Source of the DNA: Phycisphaerae bacterium
Lineage (GTDB): Bacteria; Planctomycetota; Phycisphaerae; UBA1845
Direction: 5' to 3'
NCBI GenBank assembly: GCA_013360585.1
Contig: JABWBH010000024.1
Span: 1-58,845, forward strand
Length of the DNA: 58,845 nucleotides
Shown: piece by piece, positions 1,192-44,131 of the stretch
Numbering within the stretch: the stretch's first letter is position 1
Layout: every line of letters begins with the position of its first letter
Notes under the pieces: generated by a model
What the model was told of the DNA's origin: nothing
The model's database searches: none
The model's input: only the letters and a program-made list of their open reading frames with translations
Program-made: the position numbers and the translations under genes

Positions 1192-1461
1192 CTAATCCAC
1201 CGGTTTCTTTCGCGTTGGCGGAGGCGACGCCGACTCGTTTACCGATTCGATCCGCGTCACGTGAACCCGGGCGATCTGCGTCACGCCATCCGCCACGCCG
1301 GGGGCATCCGCGGCCGGACGACCGACGTAAACCGTCGCACGTGAAAGCAGGCACATCTCGGGATGCCGGATGTCGTACGTCGCGCCGTCCGAAACAAACA
1401 GCCGAAACGGCTCAAACGGCTTGCGGTCCAGGTAATCTCGAATGTCTTCCGGCCTGATCAT
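1192..1461 (-). CDS. Small conserved-type hypothetical protein (89 aa)
   Basis: The N-terminus contains KPFEPFRLFVSDG followed by YDIRHPEM. This pattern recurs in short proteins of planctomycetes as I recall them. The fold is probably a small beta-rich domain without a signal peptide or membrane segment; the C-terminus is polar and proline-rich. It lies 9 bases downstream of pspC on the same strand, so the two are probably co-transcribed. No function can be assigned from the sequence. Confidence 0.65.
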   Translation of the reverse strand: MIRPEDIRDYLDRKPFEPFRLFVSDGATYDIRHPEMCLLSRATVYVGRPAADAPGVADGVTQIARVHVTRIESVNESASPPPTRKKPVD

Positions 1462-1470
1462 CCCGCCGCC

Positions 1471-1671
1471 TCAATAATACTCCCGTTCCGGTATCACCAC
1501 CCACAGAATCAGGTAGATCAGGACCGGCGACCCGAACCCCACGACCGCCGCGATGGCGAACAACACCCGCAGCACCGTCGCGTCAATGCCGAAGTATTCC
1601 CCCAGTCCGCCGCACACGCCGGCGAGGTAGCGGTTATGCACGCTGCGTCGCAGTGTTGAAGATCGGCTCAT
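1471..1671 (-). CDS. pspC: PspC domain membrane protein (66 aa)
   Basis: This is a compact PspC domain: a basic N-terminus (SRSSTLRRS), the family core YLAGVCGGLGEYFGID, then a long hydrophobic stretch (about residues 31-60) ending VVIPER. PspC proteins are inner-membrane partners in the phage-shock envelope-stress response, where the effector PspA is itself a bacterial ESCRT-III homolog. That makes its position between two ESCRT-III-like genes notable. The start could be 1674 or 1671; 1671 gives better spacing from a GAAGAA site. Almost the whole length is domain, with no extra cytoplasmic module. Confidence 0.85.
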   Translation of the reverse strand: MSRSSTLRRSVHNRYLAGVCGGLGEYFGIDATVLRVLFAIAAVVGFGSPVLIYLILWVVIPEREYY

Positions 1672-1802
1672 CATTTCTTCGCGATCATACAGAAAAACAC
1701 GCACATTCTCTTCAGCGTCCAGGATGGACAGAATTTGCAAAATGACCAGGGTCAGATTCCGATCCTGTCGATCCTGTCCCTGCTGTGACAATCTGCATGA
1801 GT

Positions 1803-2405
1803 TCACTCCGCCGCCTGCTGCCGCTCCCGCACCCGGCGATCGGCTTCATCGAAGCCTTCGTTCGCGTCGGCGATCTCGCCGCGGTCGAGCTTCTCCCAGA
1901 TGTCCATCACGGCGCGGCCCGCTTCGTTGTTCGTCGCCGCATGCTCGTCGGCTTCGCGGCCGAGCGCCAGAACCTCATCCAGCCGCTCCTGGTACATCTC
2001 GACCTTCACCGAGTCCGCCTCGATGAGCTTGCCGAGGCGCATCATGTCCTTCGCGCTGATGAGGCCCAGCTTGCCGCCGCCCTTCATGCGGTCGGCGTTC
2101 TCGCGGAGCATCCGCAGGCGCGAGACGGTGAGCAGCTCCTTCGTGCGGATGTTGAGCTGCCGCTGGAGCATGAGCTGCTCGGTGGTGCGCAGCTCGAACT
2201 CCTGCGCGAGCATCTGCCGCGCCTCCGGCGTCTTCTCCTTCGCCCCGCGCTCGAACAACCCCTGTTTATCCTTGGCGAGCTTGAGTACCTTGTCGAGCAT
2301 CTGCTTGCGGTCTTTTTCGAGCAACAGCTCCTGCCGCCGAAGCTCCGAGCGCGACATCTCGGAGACGGACTTCTTGCGCTTGATGAGGTAATCGAAGAAG
2401 GTCAT
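1803..2405 (-). CDS. ESCRT-III-like helical protein B (200 aa)
   Basis: The whole chain is helical and highly charged. After a short start (MTFFDYLIKRKKSVSEM) a long helical hairpin runs from about residue 20 to 100, with ELRRQELLLEKDRKQ on the first arm and LAQEFELRTTEQLMLQRQLN on the second. The turn contains GAKEKTPEAR, where ESCRT-III proteins have a small-residue linker. Shorter helices follow, and VMDIWEKLDRGE (about 166-177) resembles the late helix that carries MIM motifs in ESCRT-III. It is a paralogue in architecture but clearly divergent from protein A. The assignment rests on pattern, not on alignment; an unrelated coiled coil cannot be excluded. Confidence 0.55.
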   Translation of the reverse strand: MTFFDYLIKRKKSVSEMSRSELRRQELLLEKDRKQMLDKVLKLAKDKQGLFERGAKEKTPEARQMLAQEFELRTTEQLMLQRQLNIRTKELLTVSRLRMLRENADRMKGGGKLGLISAKDMMRLGKLIEADSVKVEMYQERLDEVLALGREADEHAATNNEAGRAVMDIWEKLDRGEIADANEGFDEADRRVRERQQAAE

Positions 2406-2507
2406 GAGAAGCTGCTAGCCGTTAGCTCCTGGCTATTGGCCAAACGCCGCAAAGTCGAGTCGTCACAATCCGAGCCGCAGGCTTCAGCCTGCGCGAATGA
2501 AACTCTG

Positions 2508-3113
2508 TCATTGCTGTCTTATCCCGGCAAGCTCCTCTGTCACATTGCGGTGCCTACTGTGCTGGTCGATGAACCTGCCAAGAATGCCCCCATCCGCCCC
2601 CTCGAAACGGGCCCAACCCCCAGTACTCGACCCTACTGACCCGACACCGCCCAATCCATCAAACGTGGCGTCGAATACTCTAATGTGACCTCTGTCATCT
2701 GCATGTTCTGATCGGGGGACGAAGAAGTACCGATTGCCGCTAACGCCGATTGCTCCGAGTGGCCCTTCAAACTCTACTCCGCTTGACGTTATGTTGATGT
2801 CAACGCCGTTTCTATTCCCATTCCGAAACCCGAGAGCGACCCTCTCTCGATGCTCAATCACAAAACGGAGCGCACGAGACGAGACGAGGAGGCGCGTCTT
2901 TTCAAGGCATGCTGCGTTTTCAGTTGCGAAAGCGTCCGAATCGTTGATCTGAATTTGATTCAGCTCTACATGGCAATCATGGCATATAAAGACGACCTGA
3001 TTCCGATGGGAGTTCCTGCCCTCCGTATGATGTTCCGTTAACTGATTCTCAAGACTTGGGGTGCAAAGGCAACGTACGCAGAAACCGAAACGTCGCGCGT
3101 CAGCTCTTGTCAT
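2508..3113 (-). CDS. HNH-like zinc protein of unknown role (201 aa)
   Basis: The N-terminus has paired cysteines (CVRCLC, residues 12-17), a histidine pair in LTEHHTEGRNSHRN (about 26-39) and CHDCHVELN (about 44-52). This is the layout of an HNH endonuclease zinc core. The rest is a glycine-rich, probably beta-stranded region with no recognised domain. The gene is visibly poorer in G+C than its neighbours and sits between two ESCRT-III-like genes, starting 26 bases past the larger one. It may be a later insertion. The start is the ATG at 3113 with AAGG upstream. Nuclease activity is inferred only from the motif. Confidence 0.5.
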   Translation of the reverse strand: MTRADARRFGFCVRCLCTPSLENQLTEHHTEGRNSHRNQVVFICHDCHVELNQIQINDSDAFATENAACLEKTRLLVSSRALRFVIEHRERVALGFRNGNRNGVDINITSSGVEFEGPLGAIGVSGNRYFFVPRSEHADDRGHIRVFDATFDGLGGVGSVGSSTGGWARFEGADGGILGRFIDQHSRHRNVTEELAGIRQQ

Positions 3114-3139
3114 CGCAATCTGACCTTGCTTCTGAGAAA

Positions 3140-4660
3140 TCAGCTTGCCTCCGGGTCGCGCGTTCTCGGCGCTGATTCGGGTCGCATCGGCGGCGGAGGT
3201 TCCGGCGGCGACGCTGCGGCGCTTCGCTGCGGCGTCGCGGGCTCCTTCCGCGGCGCGGCCTGCGGCGTGTTGCCTTGATCCGCAATGCGCTCGCGTGACG
3301 GCGCCGGCGCGGCGGAATCCTTCCGCTCGCCCGCCCGGCTCCCCGCGCGTGACGACGACGCCTCCTGAAACTCCTTGAGGATGTCCGCCTCCTCGTCGCT
3401 CATCACCGATTCGCTCATGCCCGCCGCAAGACTCGACACGAGATCCGCATCGGCCTTGAGCGTCTCGAGCATCTCCTCCGCCGCGACCGCGTGCTCGGTC
3501 AGTTCCTGCGAGTCCGGGAGCTTGGCGATCTGCCCTTGCTGAATGAGCGTGAGGTTGTGAATGTCCGTGCTGATGATGTTGATCTGCTGATTGAGCATGC
3601 CCAGCGACGTGTTGACGCGGAGGATGTCCTTGCGGAGCTGGGCGACCTGCGCGGCAATGCGCCGCTGGGTGAGCGCGGAGTTCGCCGCCCGACCCTGCTC
3701 CATCAATTCGTCCTCTTTCTTTTCCAGCTTGGCGATGTCGTCGTAGAGGCGGTCGCGGCGCTGGGTGAGCGCGGCGCGGCGCTCCGACAGCAGGTTGATC
3801 TTCTGCTTGTCGTCGCCCTCGCGGGAGAACATCTGCCGGATCCGGTCGATCATGCTCACCGAGTTCTTCTCCCCGGGCATCGCCGCTGCGCCCCGATACA
3901 GGAGGAATGTCCCGTCTTTCTTCGCCAACTTCAACTCCGGGTCCGCTTTCACGACTTCCTCCAGCGCGGTCTTCACCACCGCTTCGGGCAGACCGGTGCG
4001 CTCCACCACCTGCTCCAGCGACAGACTGCCGGTCAGCAGGTCGGCGCTCGCCTCCTCGACGACGCGCTTCGCCCGATCCACCTTCTGCCGCGAACCCTCC
4101 GGGTCAAAGATCGCCAGCACGCGGGCATCGACGGCCGCCCCGGGCGAGAAAACCTTCCAGCCGCCGCTCCCGTCCGGTTCGACGAGCACCAGGGTGATAT
4201 TCGGAAAATCCAGCCCGCTATTGTGGACCTCCCGGGTGAACCCCGTCGGACTGCACACGCCGATGACGTGCGGCGTCTTCGCATCCCCCGCGAGTCGCCG
4301 GACGTGGTCCGTCAATTCCGCCAGGCCGATCGGCGGCGCCTCCCCGGCGTTATCGGCCGCGAAATGCTCGAGCGGCGACAGCACGGAGGCGATCGCCACG
4401 CCCGTCGCCCGCCTCCCGAAGATGAACCGCCGCTCGAACCCGCGCAGGACGACCCGGCGGTTGCAGGGCAGGGCCTTCAGCGCTGCGCGGTCCGGCCGAC
4501 CGTGCCGCGCGAGCAGCGCCCGCAGACGGTCCTCCTCGTCGTGCTGCGACGCGCGCCAGAACTTCCCCCGGAACGCCTTCCCCTTGGCGGCCTCGAAGTT
4601 CATCTGAACGCCGGACAGAAACGACGTTTCTCGCTGGAAGGCTTGTTCGGCTCGACTCAT
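3140..4660 (-). CDS. Winged-helix plus ESCRT-III-like protein (506 aa)
   Basis: Three parts are visible. Residues about 65-190 form an alpha/beta domain I do not recognise (VVLRGFERRFIFGRR, HVIGVCSPTGF). Residues about 196-257 read as a winged helix: LSLEQVVERTGLPEAVVKTA followed by a KDGTFLLYRG wing. Residues about 284-435 form an ESCRT-III-like coil: a basic hairpin (LLSERRAALTQRRDRL; TQRRIAAQVAQLRKDILRV), a middle helix and a late acidic helix, DEEADILKEFQEA (422-434), placed like a MIM motif. The tail to 506 is disordered and rich in P, A and S. Eukaryotic CHMP7 has winged helices before an ESCRT-III core, so the order is suggestive. Starts at 4660 or 4603 (MNFEAAK) are possible. Confidence 0.6.
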   Translation of the reverse strand: MSRAEQAFQRETSFLSGVQMNFEAAKGKAFRGKFWRASQHDEEDRLRALLARHGRPDRAALKALPCNRRVVLRGFERRFIFGRRATGVAIASVLSPLEHFAADNAGEAPPIGLAELTDHVRRLAGDAKTPHVIGVCSPTGFTREVHNSGLDFPNITLVLVEPDGSGGWKVFSPGAAVDARVLAIFDPEGSRQKVDRAKRVVEEASADLLTGSLSLEQVVERTGLPEAVVKTALEEVVKADPELKLAKKDGTFLLYRGAAAMPGEKNSVSMIDRIRQMFSREGDDKQKINLLSERRAALTQRRDRLYDDIAKLEKKEDELMEQGRAANSALTQRRIAAQVAQLRKDILRVNTSLGMLNQQINIISTDIHNLTLIQQGQIAKLPDSQELTEHAVAAEEMLETLKADADLVSSLAAGMSESVMSDEEADILKEFQEASSSRAGSRAGERKDSAAPAPSRERIADQGNTPQAAPRKEPATPQRSAAASPPEPPPPMRPESAPRTRDPEAS

Positions 4661-18713: not shown

Positions 18714-19625
18714 ATGAAGCGGCGCGCGGCGTTCACCTTGATCGAGCTGCTGGTCGTCATCGCGATCATCGGCCTGCTGATATCGATCCTGCTGCCGAGC
18801 CTTCAGGCGGCGCGGCGTTCGGCGCGCGGGCTGCGGTGCGCGACCAACCTGCGTCAGATCGGCGTCGGCTGGACGATCTACGCCGACCAGAACGACGGAA
18901 CCGTCGTCCCGGGTCGTCCCGGGCGCTTCGCCGACGCCAACCGGAACGTGTATTGGGTCGGCAACGGATATCAGTTCCGCCCGCGCTGGTACGTCCAGAT
19001 GGGCGCGGAGGCGGGGTTCTACGCTTTCAACCAGCCCAGCCCCGATCCGGCACAGGACAATCTCAAGCAGGTGGACGGCAACGAAGTGTTCCTCTGTCCC
19101 GAAGTCGCCGAGCGGACGAACAACCGCAATTACGCCTTCGGATACAACTACCAGTTCCTCGGAAACGCCCGTTTCAAGGGCGGATCGGAGTCCAACGGGT
19201 TCATCAATTTCCCGCTCCCGATCGACCGCATCCGCGCGGCGTCCTCGACGGTGATGTGCGCGGACGCGATGGGCACGGCTGCGGGCAAGCCCAGACGAAG
19301 CCGGACCGAGTACCGGACGGACGGTTCGTCGGATGTGTTCGCCTGGGGCAATCATGCGTGGTCGCTGGATCCGCCGCGCCTGACCCCGGAATCGGACTTC
19401 TGCGACGACAACAACCGAGCGCCCGAGCACCGCTCGGCGATCGAGACCCGCCACGGCGCCAAAGCGAACGTCATGTACTGCGACGGTCACGTCGGGTTCG
19501 AGACGTTCGAGTCGCTGGGGTACGAAGCGGGAGCGGACGGCGCGATCGGCGTCGGCACGGGCCGGGCGCACAACCGTTTCTTTTCCGGGACCGGCGAGGA
19601 CGCGGGCCCGCCGCCGATTCAGTAA
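18714..19625 (+). CDS. Pseudopilin-like protein with prepilin signal (303 aa)
   Basis: The N-terminus [20 protein letters not shown] is a prepilin-peptidase signal with a hydrophobic helix of about 20 residues, followed by [20 protein letters not shown]. Near the end is [11 protein letters not shown], the H-x9-DG type signature of planctomycete pseudopilins. Such proteins are abundant paralogues in this phylum. The ATG at 18714 has AAGGA 6 bases upstream; an upstream GTG is possible but would lengthen the leader. It lies between two TldD-family genes on one strand, which may reflect a shared export or processing role (inference). Confidence 0.92.
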
Positions 19626-22430: not shown

Positions 22431-22593
22431 TTGGCGCTGGACCACGCAGGCCCGGAGGGACGGCTGATCGGCGGCACGAGGGGATTCTTGTTCCTCTGAA
22501 ACTTCTTTCGTCCCTCCGGGACTTCGGTTTGTCCGCGCGGGCTTCCCCAGCCCTGGCGGGCTGGGCTGGTTTCTGACGCCCCTGCCGGGGCTG

Positions 22594-22702
22594 GGACTTC
22601 GGAATGATCCTCCGGGGTCAGGACCGCCGGATGACCTTCCGGGGCACGGGACTTCCGGATGATCTTCCGGGATCAGGACTGCCGGATGATCTTGCGGGGT
22701 CA
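22594..22702. repeat. About 27-bp tandem repeat, four copies
   Basis: Four head-to-tail copies occur at 22594-22620, 22621-22648 (28 bases), 22649-22675 and 22676-22702. Each starts GGACT or GGACC and contains a core like CCGGATGATCTTCCGGG, itself partly palindromic. The extra base in copy two breaks any reading frame, so this is not a protein repeat. Confidence 0.8.
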
Positions 22703-22815
22703 GGAAAGCCCGTCGATTTCCCGCGCATGATCGTATGTTCATGCGAACCCAACGCCCGCCAGCCGCAGTCCGGGGGAGACTCAGGTCCACGTCTTACCGT
22801 TTCGACCTTCGATTT

Positions 22816-24091: not shown

Positions 24092-24469
24092 TTATTTCCG
24101 CGGCTTTCGGATGGGCAACCGGCGCAGTCGAACCATTCTATCGCCAATAACGACTATCGCTCCAGCGTCCAAGCTCGGCCGAACAGTATCGAGGATGCTC
24201 ATCAGGATCTCGCCCTGCACGAGAGGATCGCCGTTGGTCATTCGGAACAGGATCACGGAGGGGTATTGCCGATTGCTGAATGCGAGCAGCGTTCCAAAAT
24301 CGGCGTCTTGTGTGATGATGATGCGATCATCACGGGATGCGTGATCCAGGATGCCTTCGTCGGCGGCGGTTGCAAGGCCGAGCTCAGCGGCGTGAACTGC
24401 ATCGTGTCCCGCGTCTCGAAGGATTCTCGCGATCTTCCTCGAAACCGGCTGATCGACAATGAAACGCAT
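24092..24469 (-). CDS. DUF5615 PIN-like toxin (125 aa)
   Basis: The pattern FIVDQPVSRKIARILRDAGHDAVH followed by DDRIIITQDADFG is the DUF5615 (Mut7-C-like PIN) signature; the aspartates in IVDQ and QDADFG would bind the metal. Such proteins are presumed RNases and are almost always paired with a DUF433 gene. Here the start lies one base after the stop of the DUF433 gene, an operon-like arrangement. The C-terminus is basic (RLRRLPIRKPRK). Confidence 0.88.
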   Translation of the reverse strand: MRFIVDQPVSRKIARILRDAGHDAVHAAELGLATAADEGILDHASRDDRIIITQDADFGTLLAFSNRQYPSVILFRMTNGDPLVQGEILMSILDTVRPSLDAGAIVVIGDRMVRLRRLPIRKPRK

Positions 24470-24470
24470 G

Positions 24471-24710
24471 TCACGCCCCGGAAGCAGAGGAGATAGGGAT
24501 CAATCTATCCTCCGTCAACTCGGCGGCGTAGTGAAGGGCCTCAGCGATGTCTTCCCTCTCGAGTTCGGGATACGCATCGATGATCTCCTGCGTCGTCATC
24601 CCGCTGGCCAGGCAGCGGACGATCGTGGCGACAGGAATGCGCATGCCGCGGATGCAGGCCTGACCGCCAAGGATTCGAGGATCAAACGTGATTCGTTCGA
24701 GTTCGTTCAT
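24471..24710 (-). CDS. DUF433 antitoxin-like protein (79 aa)
   Basis: The family string FDPRILGGQACIRGMRIPVATIV and the helix TTQEIIDAYPELEREDIAEAL mark DUF433, a helix-turn-helix-like domain that serves as antitoxin to DUF5615-type toxins. The gene is first in the pair, as expected for an autoregulated antitoxin. The C-terminal residues (TEDRLIPISS) could be the toxin-binding tail (inference). Confidence 0.88.
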   Translation of the reverse strand: MNELERITFDPRILGGQACIRGMRIPVATIVRCLASGMTTQEIIDAYPELEREDIAEALHYAAELTEDRLIPISSASGA

Positions 24711-25047
24711 CTGCGAAACATGTCCTACTTTTCGGGAAACCGGGCTTCCCGCGTTCGTTCCTGTTGCTCAACATTGATTATACCTCGGACGAGGACTCAA
24801 ACCAATCTGTTCACGGCGCCGCCAGAACCCGCTCGGCGGTGTGGGAGAGGTCCGTCACTTCCTCGGCTTCCCCGCCGAATCCGTGGTCGATCTTCGGTTC
24901 GACGCCAGCCAGTACACCGGTCTGGAAGGTCCGCCGTCGGAGCGCCAGACCGGTCCGGTCGCCTCGACGGCGACGTCATCGCGGTGGAGGAGGAGGATTT
25001 CGAATCGCGGGTCTCGGGCCTCGGAAAATGAGGCGGCGCCGGGTCCG
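24711..25047. other. Gap without a confident gene
   Basis: The first 90 bases before the DUF433 start are AT-richer and should hold its promoter. The part from about 24800 to 25047 has minus-strand stretches that read like protein in two different frames (HRDDVAVEATGPVW, then EEVTDLSHTAERVLAAP ending at a TGA near 24803). Neither has a start or full length. It could be a decayed gene, and nothing is called. Confidence 0.4.
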
Positions 25048-35655: not shown

Positions 35656-36060
35656 ATGCCCAACTTTCATCAGCACCTGATCTTTAATGGGGTGGTGAGC
35701 AACGTTCCCGCCTCGGCCGAGGACTGCCGTCGCTGGCTCGACGCTCTCGTGCCGAAGATTCACATGGAGACGTTGGTCCCCGCTCGCGCCGTGTACTGCG
35801 ACGATCCGGGCAACGAAGGCGTCACCGGCGTCGTGGTCATTTCGACCTCCCACGCGGCTTTTCATTACTGGGAGCCGAAGTCGGAGAACCCCAACCGGTT
35901 GTCGTTCTGCCTGTACTCCTGCGCGCCCTTTGACCCGCAGGTGGTGATCGACCACATCGACGAGTTCTGGTCGATCCAGGATTGCAGGTGGAAGCTGTTC
36001 GACCGGGGCTGGGACGTTCTCGACGTCACGCCCCAGTTGGAGCTGGCGACGGCGATGTAA
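35656..36060 (+). CDS. S-adenosylmethionine decarboxylase (SpeH)-like protein (134 aa)
   Basis: GVTGVVVISTSHAAFHYWE (residues 55-73) matches the SpeH segment around its self-cleavage site, and LYSCAPFDPQVV matches the region of its catalytic cysteine. Ser65 would become the pyruvoyl group, with His70 and Cys89 as catalytic partners. In SpeH the residue before that serine is Glu; here it is Thr64, so processing may differ or be absent. SpeH makes the aminopropyl donor for spermidine. The ATG at 35656 fits a GGAGG site. The 35661-36060 region shows no frame break. Confidence 0.78.
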   Translation: MPNFHQHLIFNGVVSNVPASAEDCRRWLDALVPKIHMETLVPARAVYCDDPGNEGVTGVVVISTSHAAFHYWEPKSENPNRLSFCLYSCAPFDPQVVIDHIDEFWSIQDCRWKLFDRGWDVLDVTPQLELATAM

Positions 36061-36231: not shown

Positions 36232-36262
36232 GGCGGCCCCCCAGGAAGGGGCCGCCTTTTTG
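36232..36262 (+). terminator. Strong Rho-independent terminator
   Basis: GGCGGCCCC and GGGGCCGCC form a 9-bp GC stem around a 7-base loop, followed at once by TTTTTG. This is the most canonical terminator in the window. Confidence 0.9.
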
Positions 36263-36333
36263 TTTCTGTGGCATCGATAGCCGGGCACGCGCTTGACGCT
36301 AAGGAAGCCGTCTGACGAGAATCGAGCGGCGTG

Positions 36334-37335
36334 ATGGTCCGAACATCTTCCCAATCAGCCGAGAGCGATCTGGAGCAGGGGCTTCTTGCAGATTTCCTTA
36401 ATCGCGGGACGCTGGATGAACTGCTCCCCCAGCTCGCCCGGGACAGGCGAGCCATCCAGGAAATCGAGTCCGTGGTCCGTAGTCTGACCACCGAACACGA
36501 CCTTGTACTCGGAGACGCCCGCTCTGCATCAGCGCTGCCCCCCGACTCGGTTCACCTGGTTGTCACTTCCCCGCCCTACTGGACGCTTAAGCGATATCAC
36601 GAACACGACGGTCAACTGGGTCACGTCCCGGACTACGAAGCGTTTCACGCCTCGCTGGAGGAGGTCTGGAGGAACTGCTTCCGGGCGCTGGTTCCCGGGG
36701 GCGTCTCATCATCAATGCCGGCGATGTCTGCCTCTGGCGGAGGAAGAACAACGGCAGGCACACCGTTGCCCCGCTCCACGCGACGATCCAGGAACGGTGC
36801 AAGGCGATCGGATTCGATAACCTGGCGACCATCATCTGGCACAAGATCGCCAACGCGAACTACGAGGTCTCCGGGGGCGGGGGGGGGTCTGGGCAAACCC
36901 TACGAGCCGAATGCTGTGATCAAGAACGACATCGAGTTCGTCCTCATGCAACGGAAACCCGGCGGATATCGAAGCCCGAAACCGCGCGAGCGGCTTCTGA
37001 GCCTGATCAGCGCCGAAAACTACCAGGCCTGGTTCCGGCAGATATGGTCGGACATTCGAGGGACATCGGCGCCGAGTCATCCCGCGCCGTTTCCGATCGA
37101 ATTTGCCGAGCGTCTTGTGCGCATGTTCTCCTTCGTCGGGGACACGGTGCTCGACCCTTTCATGGGGACGGGAACCACGAGTCTTGCATGCGCCCGCTGG
37201 GGGCGCAACAGCATTGGAATCGAGAGCGATCCCCGGTACTACGAAATCGCCCGGAAGCGCGTCGCGGATTACGGCGCGGACCTTTATGTCAAAACCAGGC
37301 TGACATCGCGGGTGCTGGCGCATGCGAAATCATGA
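36334..37335 (+). CDS. Type II DNA methyltransferase, interrupted in the middle by two G-run frameshifts
   Basis: The catalytic motif TSPPYW (residues about 79-84) precedes the SAM-binding DPFMGTGTTSLACA, the beta-class order; SPPY suggests N4-cytosine or N6-adenine methylation. Between 36702 and 36887 the main frame is nonsense, while the next frame reads proper protein (RLIINAGDVCLWRRKNNG, IGFDNLATIIWHKIANANYE). A missing G in the run at 36697-36701 and an extra G at 36879-36887 would restore one continuous enzyme. The gene overlaps the endonuclease gene by 14 bases. The main-frame product is probably inactive. Start GTG 36331 or ATG 36334. Confidence 0.85.
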   Translation: MVRTSSQSAESDLEQGLLADFLNRGTLDELLPQLARDRRAIQEIESVVRSLTTEHDLVLGDARSASALPPDSVHLVVTSPPYWTLKRYHEHDGQLGHVPDYEAFHASLEEVWRNCFRALVPGGVSSSMPAMSASGGGRTTAGTPLPRSTRRSRNGARRSDSITWRPSSGTRSPTRTTRSPGAGGGLGKPYEPNAVIKNDIEFVLMQRKPGGYRSPKPRERLLSLISAENYQAWFRQIWSDIRGTSAPSHPAPFPIEFAERLVRMFSFVGDTVLDPFMGTGTTSLACARWGRNSIGIESDPRYYEIARKRVADYGADLYVKTRLTSRVLAHAKS

Positions 37336-38038
37336 TGACGGACTTCGAGAAGCCGTTCGATATTTCTGGAATACGCGACATCAACAGACGACGCGGCAGG
37401 GCCAGGATGACGATCGGGATCGGGGTGGACGAAGCGCCGTAACCGGCGGCAAGCAGATGAACGGATTCATTCAATTTGTCCGGGAACTGCTGTTGGAGTC
37501 CAAGGTTCCGCAATCCAGTATCGAAATCGGCAAACGAGTGGAACTCCCGGGATGGTTCCGGGCGGAAAAGAAGTGGGATCTTATCGTCACTCACGGCGGT
37601 GAGCTTCTGGCGGCGATCGAGTTCAAATCCCAGGTCGGTCCTTCGTTCGGGAATAACTTCAACAACCGGGCCGAAGAGGCCCTCGGCAGCGCGACCGACA
37701 TCTGGGCGGCCTATCGCGAAGGAGCGTTCAAACCGTCCTCTCGCCCGTATCTCGGTTATCTGATGTCGCTGGAGGATTGCGACAAGTCCCGCGTTCCCGT
37801 AAAGGTTGTCGAGCCGCATTTCCGGGTTTTTTCCGAATTCAAGAAGGCATCCTACCGAGAGCGGTACGCCATATTGGTGGAGAAGTTGCTGCGAGAACGC
37901 CTTTATGACGGAGCGTGCCTGATTCTTTCGTCACCGGCTTCGGGGACATCAGGGGACTACCTTGAGTCCTTCCCGGAACTGACGTTCTCAAAGTTCCTCG
38001 TTCCGCTGATGGCGAGCGTAGGACGTATTCCCAGGTAG
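37322..38038 (+). CDS. PaeR7I/XhoI-type restriction endonuclease (238 aa)
   Basis: The N-terminus (LREAVRYFWNTRHQQTTRQG, GGRSAVTGGKQMNGF) and core (ELPGWFRAEKKWDLIV, AAIEFKSQVGPSFGNNFNN, RAEEALGSATDIWAAY) match the PaeR7I/XhoI family as I recall it, which cuts CTCGAG. The catalytic PD-(D/E)xK elements are Asp in KWDLIV and Glu-x-Lys in AIEFKSQ. Length equals the family norm (about 245), so it is complete. The start at 37322 includes the conserved N-terminus and lies within the end of the methylase gene, typical of a linked restriction-modification pair. Confidence 0.92.
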   Translation: MRNHDDGLREAVRYFWNTRHQQTTRQGQDDDRDRGGRSAVTGGKQMNGFIQFVRELLLESKVPQSSIEIGKRVELPGWFRAEKKWDLIVTHGGELLAAIEFKSQVGPSFGNNFNNRAEEALGSATDIWAAYREGAFKPSSRPYLGYLMSLEDCDKSRVPVKVVEPHFRVFSEFKKASYRERYAILVEKLLRERLYDGACLILSSPASGTSGDYLESFPELTFSKFLVPLMASVGRIPR

Positions 38039-38085: not shown

Positions 38086-39201
38086 ATGAACCACAGCGTG
38101 CTCAAACTCATCTGCGTCTGCGGCGCTCGGCCCAACTTCATGAAGATCGCGCCGCTTATGCGCGTGTTCCGCGAGTCGGGGCGCATGCAGGCGATCCTCG
38201 TTCACACCGGGCAGCATTATGACGAGCGGATGAGCCGGCTGTTTTTCCGGGATCTGGGGATCCCCGCGCCGGATGTGGATCTCGAGGTCGGGTCCGGGTC
38301 GCACGCGGTGCAGACCGCCGAGGTGATGAAGCGCTTCGAGCCGCTCTGCCTGGAGCACCAGCCTGACTGGGTGATCGTCGTCGGCGACGTCAACAGCACG
38401 ATCGCGTGCGCGCTGGTGGCGGCGAAGCTGGGGGTCCGGGTGGCGCACGTCGAGGCCGGGCTGCGCAGCTTCGACCGCTCGATGCCGGAGGAGATCAACC
38501 GCGTCCTGACGGATGCGATCAGCGACCTGCTTTTCGTGACGGAGCCGTCCGGGGTCGAGAACCTGCGGCGGGAGGGCGTGCCCGGGGAGCGGGTTCACCT
38601 GGTGGGCAACGTGATGATCGACACGCTGCTGGCGAACCGGGAGCGGGCTGCGGCCTCGACGATCCTTCAAGACCTCGGATTGCGCCGCCGCGGGTATGAC
38701 CTTGTGACGCTGCACCGTCCGAGCAACGTGGACGACCGCGCGGCGCTGGGGCCGATCCTGGACGCGCTGCTGGAGGTCGCAGGGGACCGGGATGTGGTTT
38801 TTCCGATCCACCCGCGGACGCGGAAGAACCTTGCGGCGTTCGGGTTCGAGGAGCGGATCGGGCGGCAGTCGCGCATCCGCCTGATCGAGCCGCAGGGGTA
38901 CCTCGATTTTCTCAAGCTGATGTCAGACGCCCACGCGGTGCTGACGGACTCGGGCGGGGTGCAGGAGGAGACGACGATCCTCGGGGTTCCGTGCCTGACG
39001 CTGCGGCACAACACGGAGCGGCCGATCACGCTGACCGAGGGCACGAACCGACTGGTCGCCCCGACGAAGCAAGGCATCCTTGACGCACTGGCGGCGGTGG
39101 ACGGGACGGCGGGGGCGGCGCCCCGGATGCCGACGTTGTGGGATGGTCGTGCGGCGGAGCGCATCCGGGATGTGCTGCTCAGCGCGGGCGCTGGATCCTG
39201 A
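38086..39201 (+). CDS. wecB: Non-hydrolysing UDP-GlcNAc 2-epimerase (371 aa)
   Basis: GARPNFMKIAPLMR at the start, HTGQHYDERMS, GDVNSTIACALVAAKLG, HVEAGLRSFDRSMPEEINR, VTLHRPSNVD and DSGGVQEETTILGVPCLTLR identify WecB/MnaA. It converts UDP-GlcNAc to UDP-ManNAc for surface polysaccharide. It starts 47 bases after the endonuclease gene on the same strand but has no functional link to it. No other polysaccharide genes adjoin it here. The protein is full length. Confidence 0.96.
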   Translation: MNHSVLKLICVCGARPNFMKIAPLMRVFRESGRMQAILVHTGQHYDERMSRLFFRDLGIPAPDVDLEVGSGSHAVQTAEVMKRFEPLCLEHQPDWVIVVGDVNSTIACALVAAKLGVRVAHVEAGLRSFDRSMPEEINRVLTDAISDLLFVTEPSGVENLRREGVPGERVHLVGNVMIDTLLANRERAAASTILQDLGLRRRGYDLVTLHRPSNVDDRAALGPILDALLEVAGDRDVVFPIHPRTRKNLAAFGFEERIGRQSRIRLIEPQGYLDFLKLMSDAHAVLTDSGGVQEETTILGVPCLTLRHNTERPITLTEGTNRLVAPTKQGILDALAAVDGTAGAAPRMPTLWDGRAAERIRDVLLSAGAGS

Positions 39202-43355: not shown

Positions 43356-44131
43356 AGGCCGAACGACGACACGAATTGAGGGAAAACGAGCTCGCCCGGG
43401 TGATCGGCGACTTCCGGACGTACATGCAGACGCACGGGCAACGCCTCCTGCTGGTGGGCGGAGGCCTGCTGGTGGTCTTCGTGGCGGTCTGGTTTTACAC
43501 GCAGAACAAGTCGGAATCGATCGGGCGGGACTGGGTGCGTTACACCGAGATTCTGGCGTCCACGCCGGAGGACGGGTGGGTCGACGCGCTGGCGGAGCTG
43601 CGCCGCATCGGGCGTGAGTCGCGGGACACCAGTCTGTCGATTACGGCGCTGAGCAAGGCCGGTCACACGGCGCTGCGTCTTGCGCTTCAGACGCCTGAGC
43701 CGGAGAAGGCGGAGGCCTTCAACGACGAGGCGGAGGAGATTTTTAGCGAGTTGCGCAGCCGGTGGGGGAGGTTCGACGTTGCGCGGGGCGTGGCGCTGTG
43801 CGGGCTTGCGACGGTGGCGGAAAACCGGTTCGCGTTCGCCGGAGACGCCTCGCAGAAGGACGTTGCCCGGAAGCTTCTGGACGAAGTCGCCAACGATGCG
43901 AAGCTTAACGGGACGCCGATGAAGAATCAGGCGATCTCGCGGCTGGCGACGCTGGACGAGGTGTTCACGCCGGTGACGTTCGCTCCTCCCGAGCCGAAGC
44001 CCGAACCCACCTCTTCCGACGCGGGCGACCCGGCTGCGGAAGGCGCGCCGGCAGCAAGCCCTGCAAGCACGACCCCTTCTGAACCGGCGCCGACGGGTTC
44101 GTCAGCCACGCCTCCCGCGCCGCAACCCTGA
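43352..44131 (+). CDS. Membrane-anchored TPR-like protein, YfgM-like (259 aa)
   Basis: A single membrane segment (about 30-49, RLLLVGGGLLVVFVAVWFY) lies after a basic helix, followed by paired helices rich in A, L and E (about 70-190), as in YfgM/TPR_21 proteins. The last 50 residues are P/A/S-rich and disordered. YfgM assists periplasmic chaperones around SecYEG, but here this is only an architectural parallel. It shares an ATGA junction with the upstream lipoprotein gene. Confidence 0.8.
   Translation: MKAERRHELRENELARVIGDFRTYMQTHGQRLLLVGGGLLVVFVAVWFYTQNKSESIGRDWVRYTEILASTPEDGWVDALAELRRIGRESRDTSLSITALSKAGHTALRLALQTPEPEKAEAFNDEAEEIFSELRSRWGRFDVARGVALCGLATVAENRFAFAGDASQKDVARKLLDEVANDAKLNGTPMKNQAISRLATLDEVFTPVTFAPPEPKPEPTSSDAGDPAAEGAPAASPASTTPSEPAPTGSSATPPAPQP

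Follow-up and report, generated by a model that had tools for sequence, protein, structure and literature searches.

A XhoI-type restriction-modification operon of a planctomycete with two frame changes in its recorded methyltransferase gene and an intact endonuclease

The window, the whole stretch of 58,845 nucleotides analysed here, belongs to an assembly of 84 contigs (4.24 Mb, 97% complete). On its plus strand, positions 36334-38038 are occupied by two overlapping genes, the first for a DNA methyltransferase (PF01555) and the second for a XhoI-family endonuclease (PF04555). Judged from the sequence, this planctomycete locus is best read as an unremarkable type II restriction-modification (R-M) operon of XhoI type, made up of two genes. 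The features of the region are the following:

35656..36060, plus strand: left neighbour, an AdoMet_dc (PF02675) protein, conserved beside the empty site in the same-genus genome G001
36232..36256, plus strand: hairpin resembling an intrinsic terminator, after the S-adenosylmethionine decarboxylase-like gene and before the operon
36293..36322, plus strand: promoter-like pair upstream of the methylase, 9/12 where 0.5 is expected by chance, and so weak
36331..37335 (36334 also given as start), plus strand: beta-class DNA methyltransferase gene, PF01555, TTHA0409-like, a single ORF of 334 aa with the middle ~60 codons out of register
36697..36701, plus strand: site 1, a G5 run with a net loss of one base relative to readable relatives
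36702..36881, plus strand: segment with the conserved protein in the other frame, RLIINAGD...NYEVSGG, from frame reading, conservation and coding model
36873..36887, plus strand: site 2, a G5-C-G9 tract coding the glycine loop, with the following phenylalanine codon lost and a net +1/-2 frame change
36886..37335, plus strand: C-terminal part, in the first frame again, GLGKPYEPN ... DPFMGTGTT, stop TGA at 37333-37335
37322..38038, plus strand: XhoI/PaeR7I-type restriction endonuclease, PF04555, full length, with D86...E100-x-K102 kept and its start overlapping the methylase end
38086..39201, plus strand: right neighbour, a UDP-GlcNAc 2-epimerase (PF02350), conserved in G001 beside the empty site

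Instead of keeping one continuous conserved frame, the methylase gene as recorded changes frame twice. From 36334 to 36699 the first frame reads ...SPPYWTLKRYHEHDGQLGH...RALVPG(G), from 36702 on the protein continues in another frame as RLIINAGDVCLWRRKNNGRHTVAPLHATIQERCKAIGFDNLATIIWHKIANANYEVSGGGGG, and from 36886 the first frame returns with GLGKPYEPNAVIKNDIEFVLMQRKPGGYR... The recorded frame is open across all 334 codons despite the shifted middle. That the right protein lies in another frame between 36702 and 36887, as the initial annotation of this DNA had proposed, was confirmed by frame reading, by comparison with relatives and by a frame-aware coding model trained on the long ORFs of this genome with no alignment, which switched frame at 36705 and 36871. 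In its own frame the shifted segment displayed 67-90% identity to the 24 closest relatives listed, and the flanks of the methylase displayed 53-74% (before the segment) and 63-86% (after it) to the same 24. The out-of-frame segment is beyond chance, since its own-frame identity matches that of the flanks. Moreover, 102 of the 103 methylase columns conserved at ≥95% (up to 72 relatives) are kept, the sole exception being V128A, five codons downstream of site 1. Together, the conserved segment and the retained columns suggest a methylase that is still functional or lost its function very recently.

The methylase scored 117.1 bits against PF01555 with the shifted segment included. Its SPPYW motif precedes DPFMGTG, the motif order of the beta class; we take these to be the catalytic motif IV and the AdoMet motif I, respectively. 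The best solved relative is TTHA0409, which aligns with the read-through methylase at residues 54-309 (E-value 3.9e-103), again including the shifted segment.

The two break sites differ in what the relatives reveal. At site 1, all 67 relative loci readable there displayed an in-frame GGR, and at site 2 all 65 readable loci displayed a phenylalanine before (L/M)GKP, with a few genomes counted twice in these figures. The proposal that one G is missing at 36697-36701 fits the in-frame GGR and, as far as the alignment can tell, site 1 would be one G too short. For 36879-36887 a single extra G had been proposed. The frame change there stands, but an extra G leaves unexplained the phenylalanine that is absent from the window copy. 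A single loss of two bases just after the G9, from an ancestor with five glycines, would be the simpler event, since it explains the frame and the missing residue together. This five-glycine form is that of G002, a genome of the same genus, whose glycine loop reads GGGGGFLG. Sites 1 and 2 also have the word CCGGGGGCG in common, which occurs only these two times on the plus strand of the window.

The endonuclease had been described as intact, and it is. Its start was set at the ATG at 37322, overlapping the methylase stop, and it ends at 38038 (238 aa). The PF04555 match is full length and above the curated cut-off: the whole endonuclease scored 251 bits, against 225.5 bits from 37457 onward, and the match takes in the N-terminal stretch that ends at 37457. 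The enzyme keeps every one of the 46 columns that reach ≥95% conservation among up to 105 distinct relatives, including D86, E100 and K102, which, from knowledge of such nucleases, we take to be the catalytic residues. The protein shares 42-48% identity with PaeR7I-family enzymes annotated on plasmids. No relatives of the endonuclease were found in viral contigs, which also held no exact match to a 27-mer from the middle segment of the methylase, and no DNA near-identical to the locus was found in plasmids.

By family membership, the endonuclease would be expected to cut CTCGAG. An active endonuclease without its methylase had been taken to be lethal; we consider that lethality would depend on the target specificity and on the expression of the endonuclease. 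Over 372 kb of this genome CTCGAG occurs 118 times, an observed/expected ratio of 0.50. The ratio is 0.45 in G001 and 0.55 in G003, both without the system. Avoidance of CTCGAG as a sign of an active system was hence uninformative, because the ratio is similar in relatives that lack it. A different hexamer, CAGCTG, is strongly under-represented genus-wide, with 7 occurrences against 110 expected in 372 kb of the window's genome, and 0 against 7.7 and 1 against 13.1 in the samples of G001 and G003, a scarcity that suggests long-standing PvuII-like restriction pressure.

A back-up protecting methylase was also considered, and no obvious candidate emerged from the genome. DNA searches detected no second copy of the methylase elsewhere in the genome, the read-through protein had no match at E 1e-10 among the other PF01555 loci of the genome, and a genome search with the gamma-class methylase that accompanies a PaeR7I-type enzyme, run with no positive control, gave no match.

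The operon occupies what appears from the genome comparison to be a variable slot in a Phycisphaerales-like planctomycete. In G001 it is replaced by 309 unrelated bases, between flanks that are ~97% (left) and ~96% (right) identical. Neither G001 nor G003, both of the same genus, carries a PF04555 gene, and G002 has its R-M operon at a different genomic place. PF04555 matches were detected in 22 of 200 relatives and in 19 of 392 genomes of the phylum, the window's genome being included in both counts. Of the distinct PF04555 loci collected, 109 in all, 34 lacked a match to this type of methylase within the available flank. Two annotated PaeR7I-type plasmid systems have an Eco57I-type methylase, presumably of the gamma class, as their upstream partner, whereas the partner in the window is a beta-class SPPYW methylase. 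On the basis of these two plasmid relatives and the 34 loci, the methylase partners of XhoI-type endonucleases appear to come from two or more unrelated classes. The methylase type also occurs without XhoI, since a Paraburkholderia terrae plasmid (L285:1961-3691) carries a related beta-class methylase with a neighbour that is not XhoI-type. That neighbour is a protein of 238 aa that has no annotation, matches no Pfam family and is not similar to the XhoI-type enzyme; it is possibly another endonuclease.

The accuracy of the assembly was evaluated with the frame model over 371,965 bases of this genome, in which 40 frame switches were flagged. Two of these are the methylase's own, 31 are overlap-like (assigned by rule, not by eye), and among the seven others, which were inspected, none was a clear break within a gene, with one, at a contig end, being ambiguous. 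The genome displayed 35 distinct G/C runs of ≥9, of which 17 besides that of the methylase are coding. All 17 keep their frame, and the two that were flagged proved on inspection to be gene ends or overlaps. The G9 in the methylase is the only G/C run of ≥9 in the 59-kb window. When ~50 kb of the window were aligned to same-genus genomes, six candidate shifts emerged, and the four inspected all lay outside real genes. General homopolymer sequencing noise was therefore rejected as the sole cause, given no other clear internal break in 372 kb and 17/17 runs in frame. In G002, 26 G/C runs of ≥9 were examined out of many more, 24 of them coding. Two were flagged: one is an in-frame gene start, and the other (L266:4237, on G002 contig 1) is a real-looking break at a C9 run on the minus strand that leaves a gene out of frame, a possible slippage site or assembly error. 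We read this gene from its sequence as probably sulfatase-like. Frame shifts at G/C runs of ≥9 are therefore rare in these assemblies, though not absent.

Other observations were made along the way. Contig 54 of this genome carries a non-coding run of 22 G at 43720-43741 (L241:2521), and runs of 13 and 15 lie close to contig ends (L189:69, L254:69 and L190:3799). Within the window, short stretches at ~22440-22790 and 18715-18900 match numerous sites across G001 and G003 at 70-90% identity, and may be dispersed repeats or the repeated end of a protein domain. A DUF433 gene and a short partner ORF lie at 24301-24767 on the minus strand, beside an HDOD gene, an arrangement that resembles a toxin-antitoxin pair.

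The poly-G tract was compared among relatives. Of 72 distinct intact methylases, 71 have no G run above 5 in the glycine loop and one (G002, in frame) has a run of 11, with none in between, and codon usage predicts ~0.2 glycine-loop sites with ≥9 G among intact methylases. A pattern search of 397 genomes of the class detected ≥7 G just before LGKP in only three: the window's genome, G002 and G133. The last, from another genus of the same class, has a G10 at the homologous site, out of frame, and an intact endonuclease. Its off frame stops ~45 bases past the tract, ~400 bases before the endonuclease start. G133 displayed seven distinct G runs of ≥9 in 3.9 Mb, and among the six coding G/C runs of ≥9 examined only that of the methylase lies at an internal frame shift (L258 is a gene overlap). 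The comparison of tract length is between species only, with G9 off in the window, G11 on in G002 and G10 off in G133. The pattern looks like recurrent tract expansion and slippage at the glycine loop, which may have taken place in the DNA or in sequencing; the window was picked for its break and does not count as independent support for recurrence. We regard poly-G slippage as a modest lead.

Broken pairs with this methylase were tallied, and the numbers are small. A broken methylase beside an intact endonuclease is found in the window, in G133 and in L078, where at 1459-3854 an insert of ~1.2 kb lies in the methylase of a XhoI-type pair. The reverse, a broken endonuclease with an intact methylase, is found in L013 (duplicate L061) and L050. 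The two kinds of broken pair are about equally frequent, with L011/L064 in neither group. Both genes are broken in L059, at a contig edge, and in L020 a stop lies close to the end of the endonuclease match.

Sequencing error, phase variation and a silent endonuclease had been put forward as the options, and our data support this as the right set, with error of a general homopolymer kind being unlikely and simple phase variation not fitting the window copy. We give an even chance to the reading that the methylase break is a local consensus error in the record around the G-rich tract, in an otherwise ordinary operon. The methylase in the cell would then most likely be functional, and the deposited sequence would hold a cluster of consensus errors within ~180 bases around the G5-C-G9 tract, namely the loss of one base at site 1 and of two at site 2, and perhaps one substitution at codon 128, which would throw 60 codons out of register. 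We infer a faulty record, and not a break in the DNA itself, because site 1, site 2 and V128A cluster within ~180 bases of a gene that is otherwise undamaged, and because an intact endonuclease with 118 CTCGAG sites would be risky without a methylase, if the family specificity holds. The broken pairs argue in the same direction, since real loss should favour broken endonucleases and errors would not, and both kinds are about equal. Our confidence goes no further because the assembly is clean elsewhere and site 1 is an easy G5. That same cleanliness favours a real and recent inactivation of the methylase, in which the endonuclease would be silent (through no expression, loss of coupling or another specificity) or too weak to kill, and the second shift would have restored the frame by chance. 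This scenario would also suit a recent or labile resident, as suggested by the empty site in G001 and by G001 and G003 having no PF04555, as well as a genome in which CTCGAG is not specially depleted and displays no sign of long restriction pressure; L078, with its insert-broken methylase, offers a parallel. Nevertheless, two indels in 180 bases with conserved columns nearly unchanged are unusual for drift, the endonuclease is without decay, and the shifts cancel, so that the endonuclease still overlaps an open upstream frame and no silencing feature is seen in the sequence. We regard real inactivation as possible but rather doubtful.

Phase variation, with a poly-G glycine tract that toggles the operon and the window holding an off form plus a further break at site 1, seems unlikely. 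The off state would bring an early stop, so that the overlapping endonuclease start is not reached and both enzymes are off. The distribution of run lengths (≤5 in 71/72 intact relatives, 11 in G002, ~0.2 expected at ≥9) and the rarity of long runs before LGKP (3/397 genomes) are in its favour, as is G133, whose G10 is its only internal break among the six coding runs examined and whose off frame ends well before the endonuclease start. In the window, however, no one-step change in the length of the G9 restores the protein, since site 1 is broken independently and site 2 lacks a phenylalanine codon, and the off frame has no early termination. G002 also has a frame break at a C9 run in an unrelated gene, the sulfatase-like one, so that shifts are not special to the methylase. 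The broader proposal is of a type II operon in planctomycetes that is phase-variable through a methylase poly-G expanded repeatedly in at least three lineages; translation of the endonuclease would depend on an in-frame methylase, and the two enzymes would switch together safely. We hold this to be quite unlikely. Programmed translational frameshifting at both sites would restore the full methylase, and both sites are indeed G runs where a ribosome could slip in a frame open throughout. Yet no shift is needed in 67/67 (site 1) and 65/65 (site 2) readable relatives, and the slippery sites are not conserved, G133 being shifted at site 2 only. By inspection, no good slippery heptamer is present at the G5 of site 1, and two opposite events would be required in one gene with the phenylalanine still missing. 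We therefore give this mechanism almost no weight.

Collectively, the initial annotation is upheld in its observation, with a correction at site 2, and in part in its interpretation. The consequences of a local consensus error are mostly for curation: the methylase as recorded is non-functional, and annotation pipelines would miss the break or call a suicidal system. Should the break or poly-G switching be true, a type II system could lose or toggle its protective enzyme without death of the host. For type I, III and IIG systems such loss or toggling has been described, but no account of it for a plain two-gene type II system was found in the literature searched. Likewise, our literature search found no description of an intact endonuclease with a frameshifted methyltransferase, and nothing on the R-M methyltransferases of XhoI/PaeR7I systems or on phase-variable R-M in planctomycetes.

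Several known systems provide points of comparison. With the XhoI/PaeR7I family (PF04555), the endonuclease shares its full-length domain and its D...ExK residues. TTHA0409 of Thermus thermophilus (PDB 2ZIE/2ZIF/2ZIG) is a putative beta-class m4C methyltransferase, its specificity being listed as unknown (PMC5173035, PMC10073500); it is continuous, whereas the window copy is broken twice. In Neisseria, type I systems with phase-variable poly-G and type III systems with repeats are known, so that poly-G occurs in an R-M gene as it does in the window; these are different system types, and the between-strain length variation is documented in Neisseria (PMC6789123). The type IIG methylase/endonuclease JHP1272/HP1353-54 of Helicobacter pylori is likewise a methylase gene with two homopolymer frame changes, whose tracts are reversible switches of activity and specificity in a fused enzyme (PMC3936762). 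The window, by contrast, has only a G5 at site 1 and a second break with a lost codon, and its endonuclease is a separate gene.
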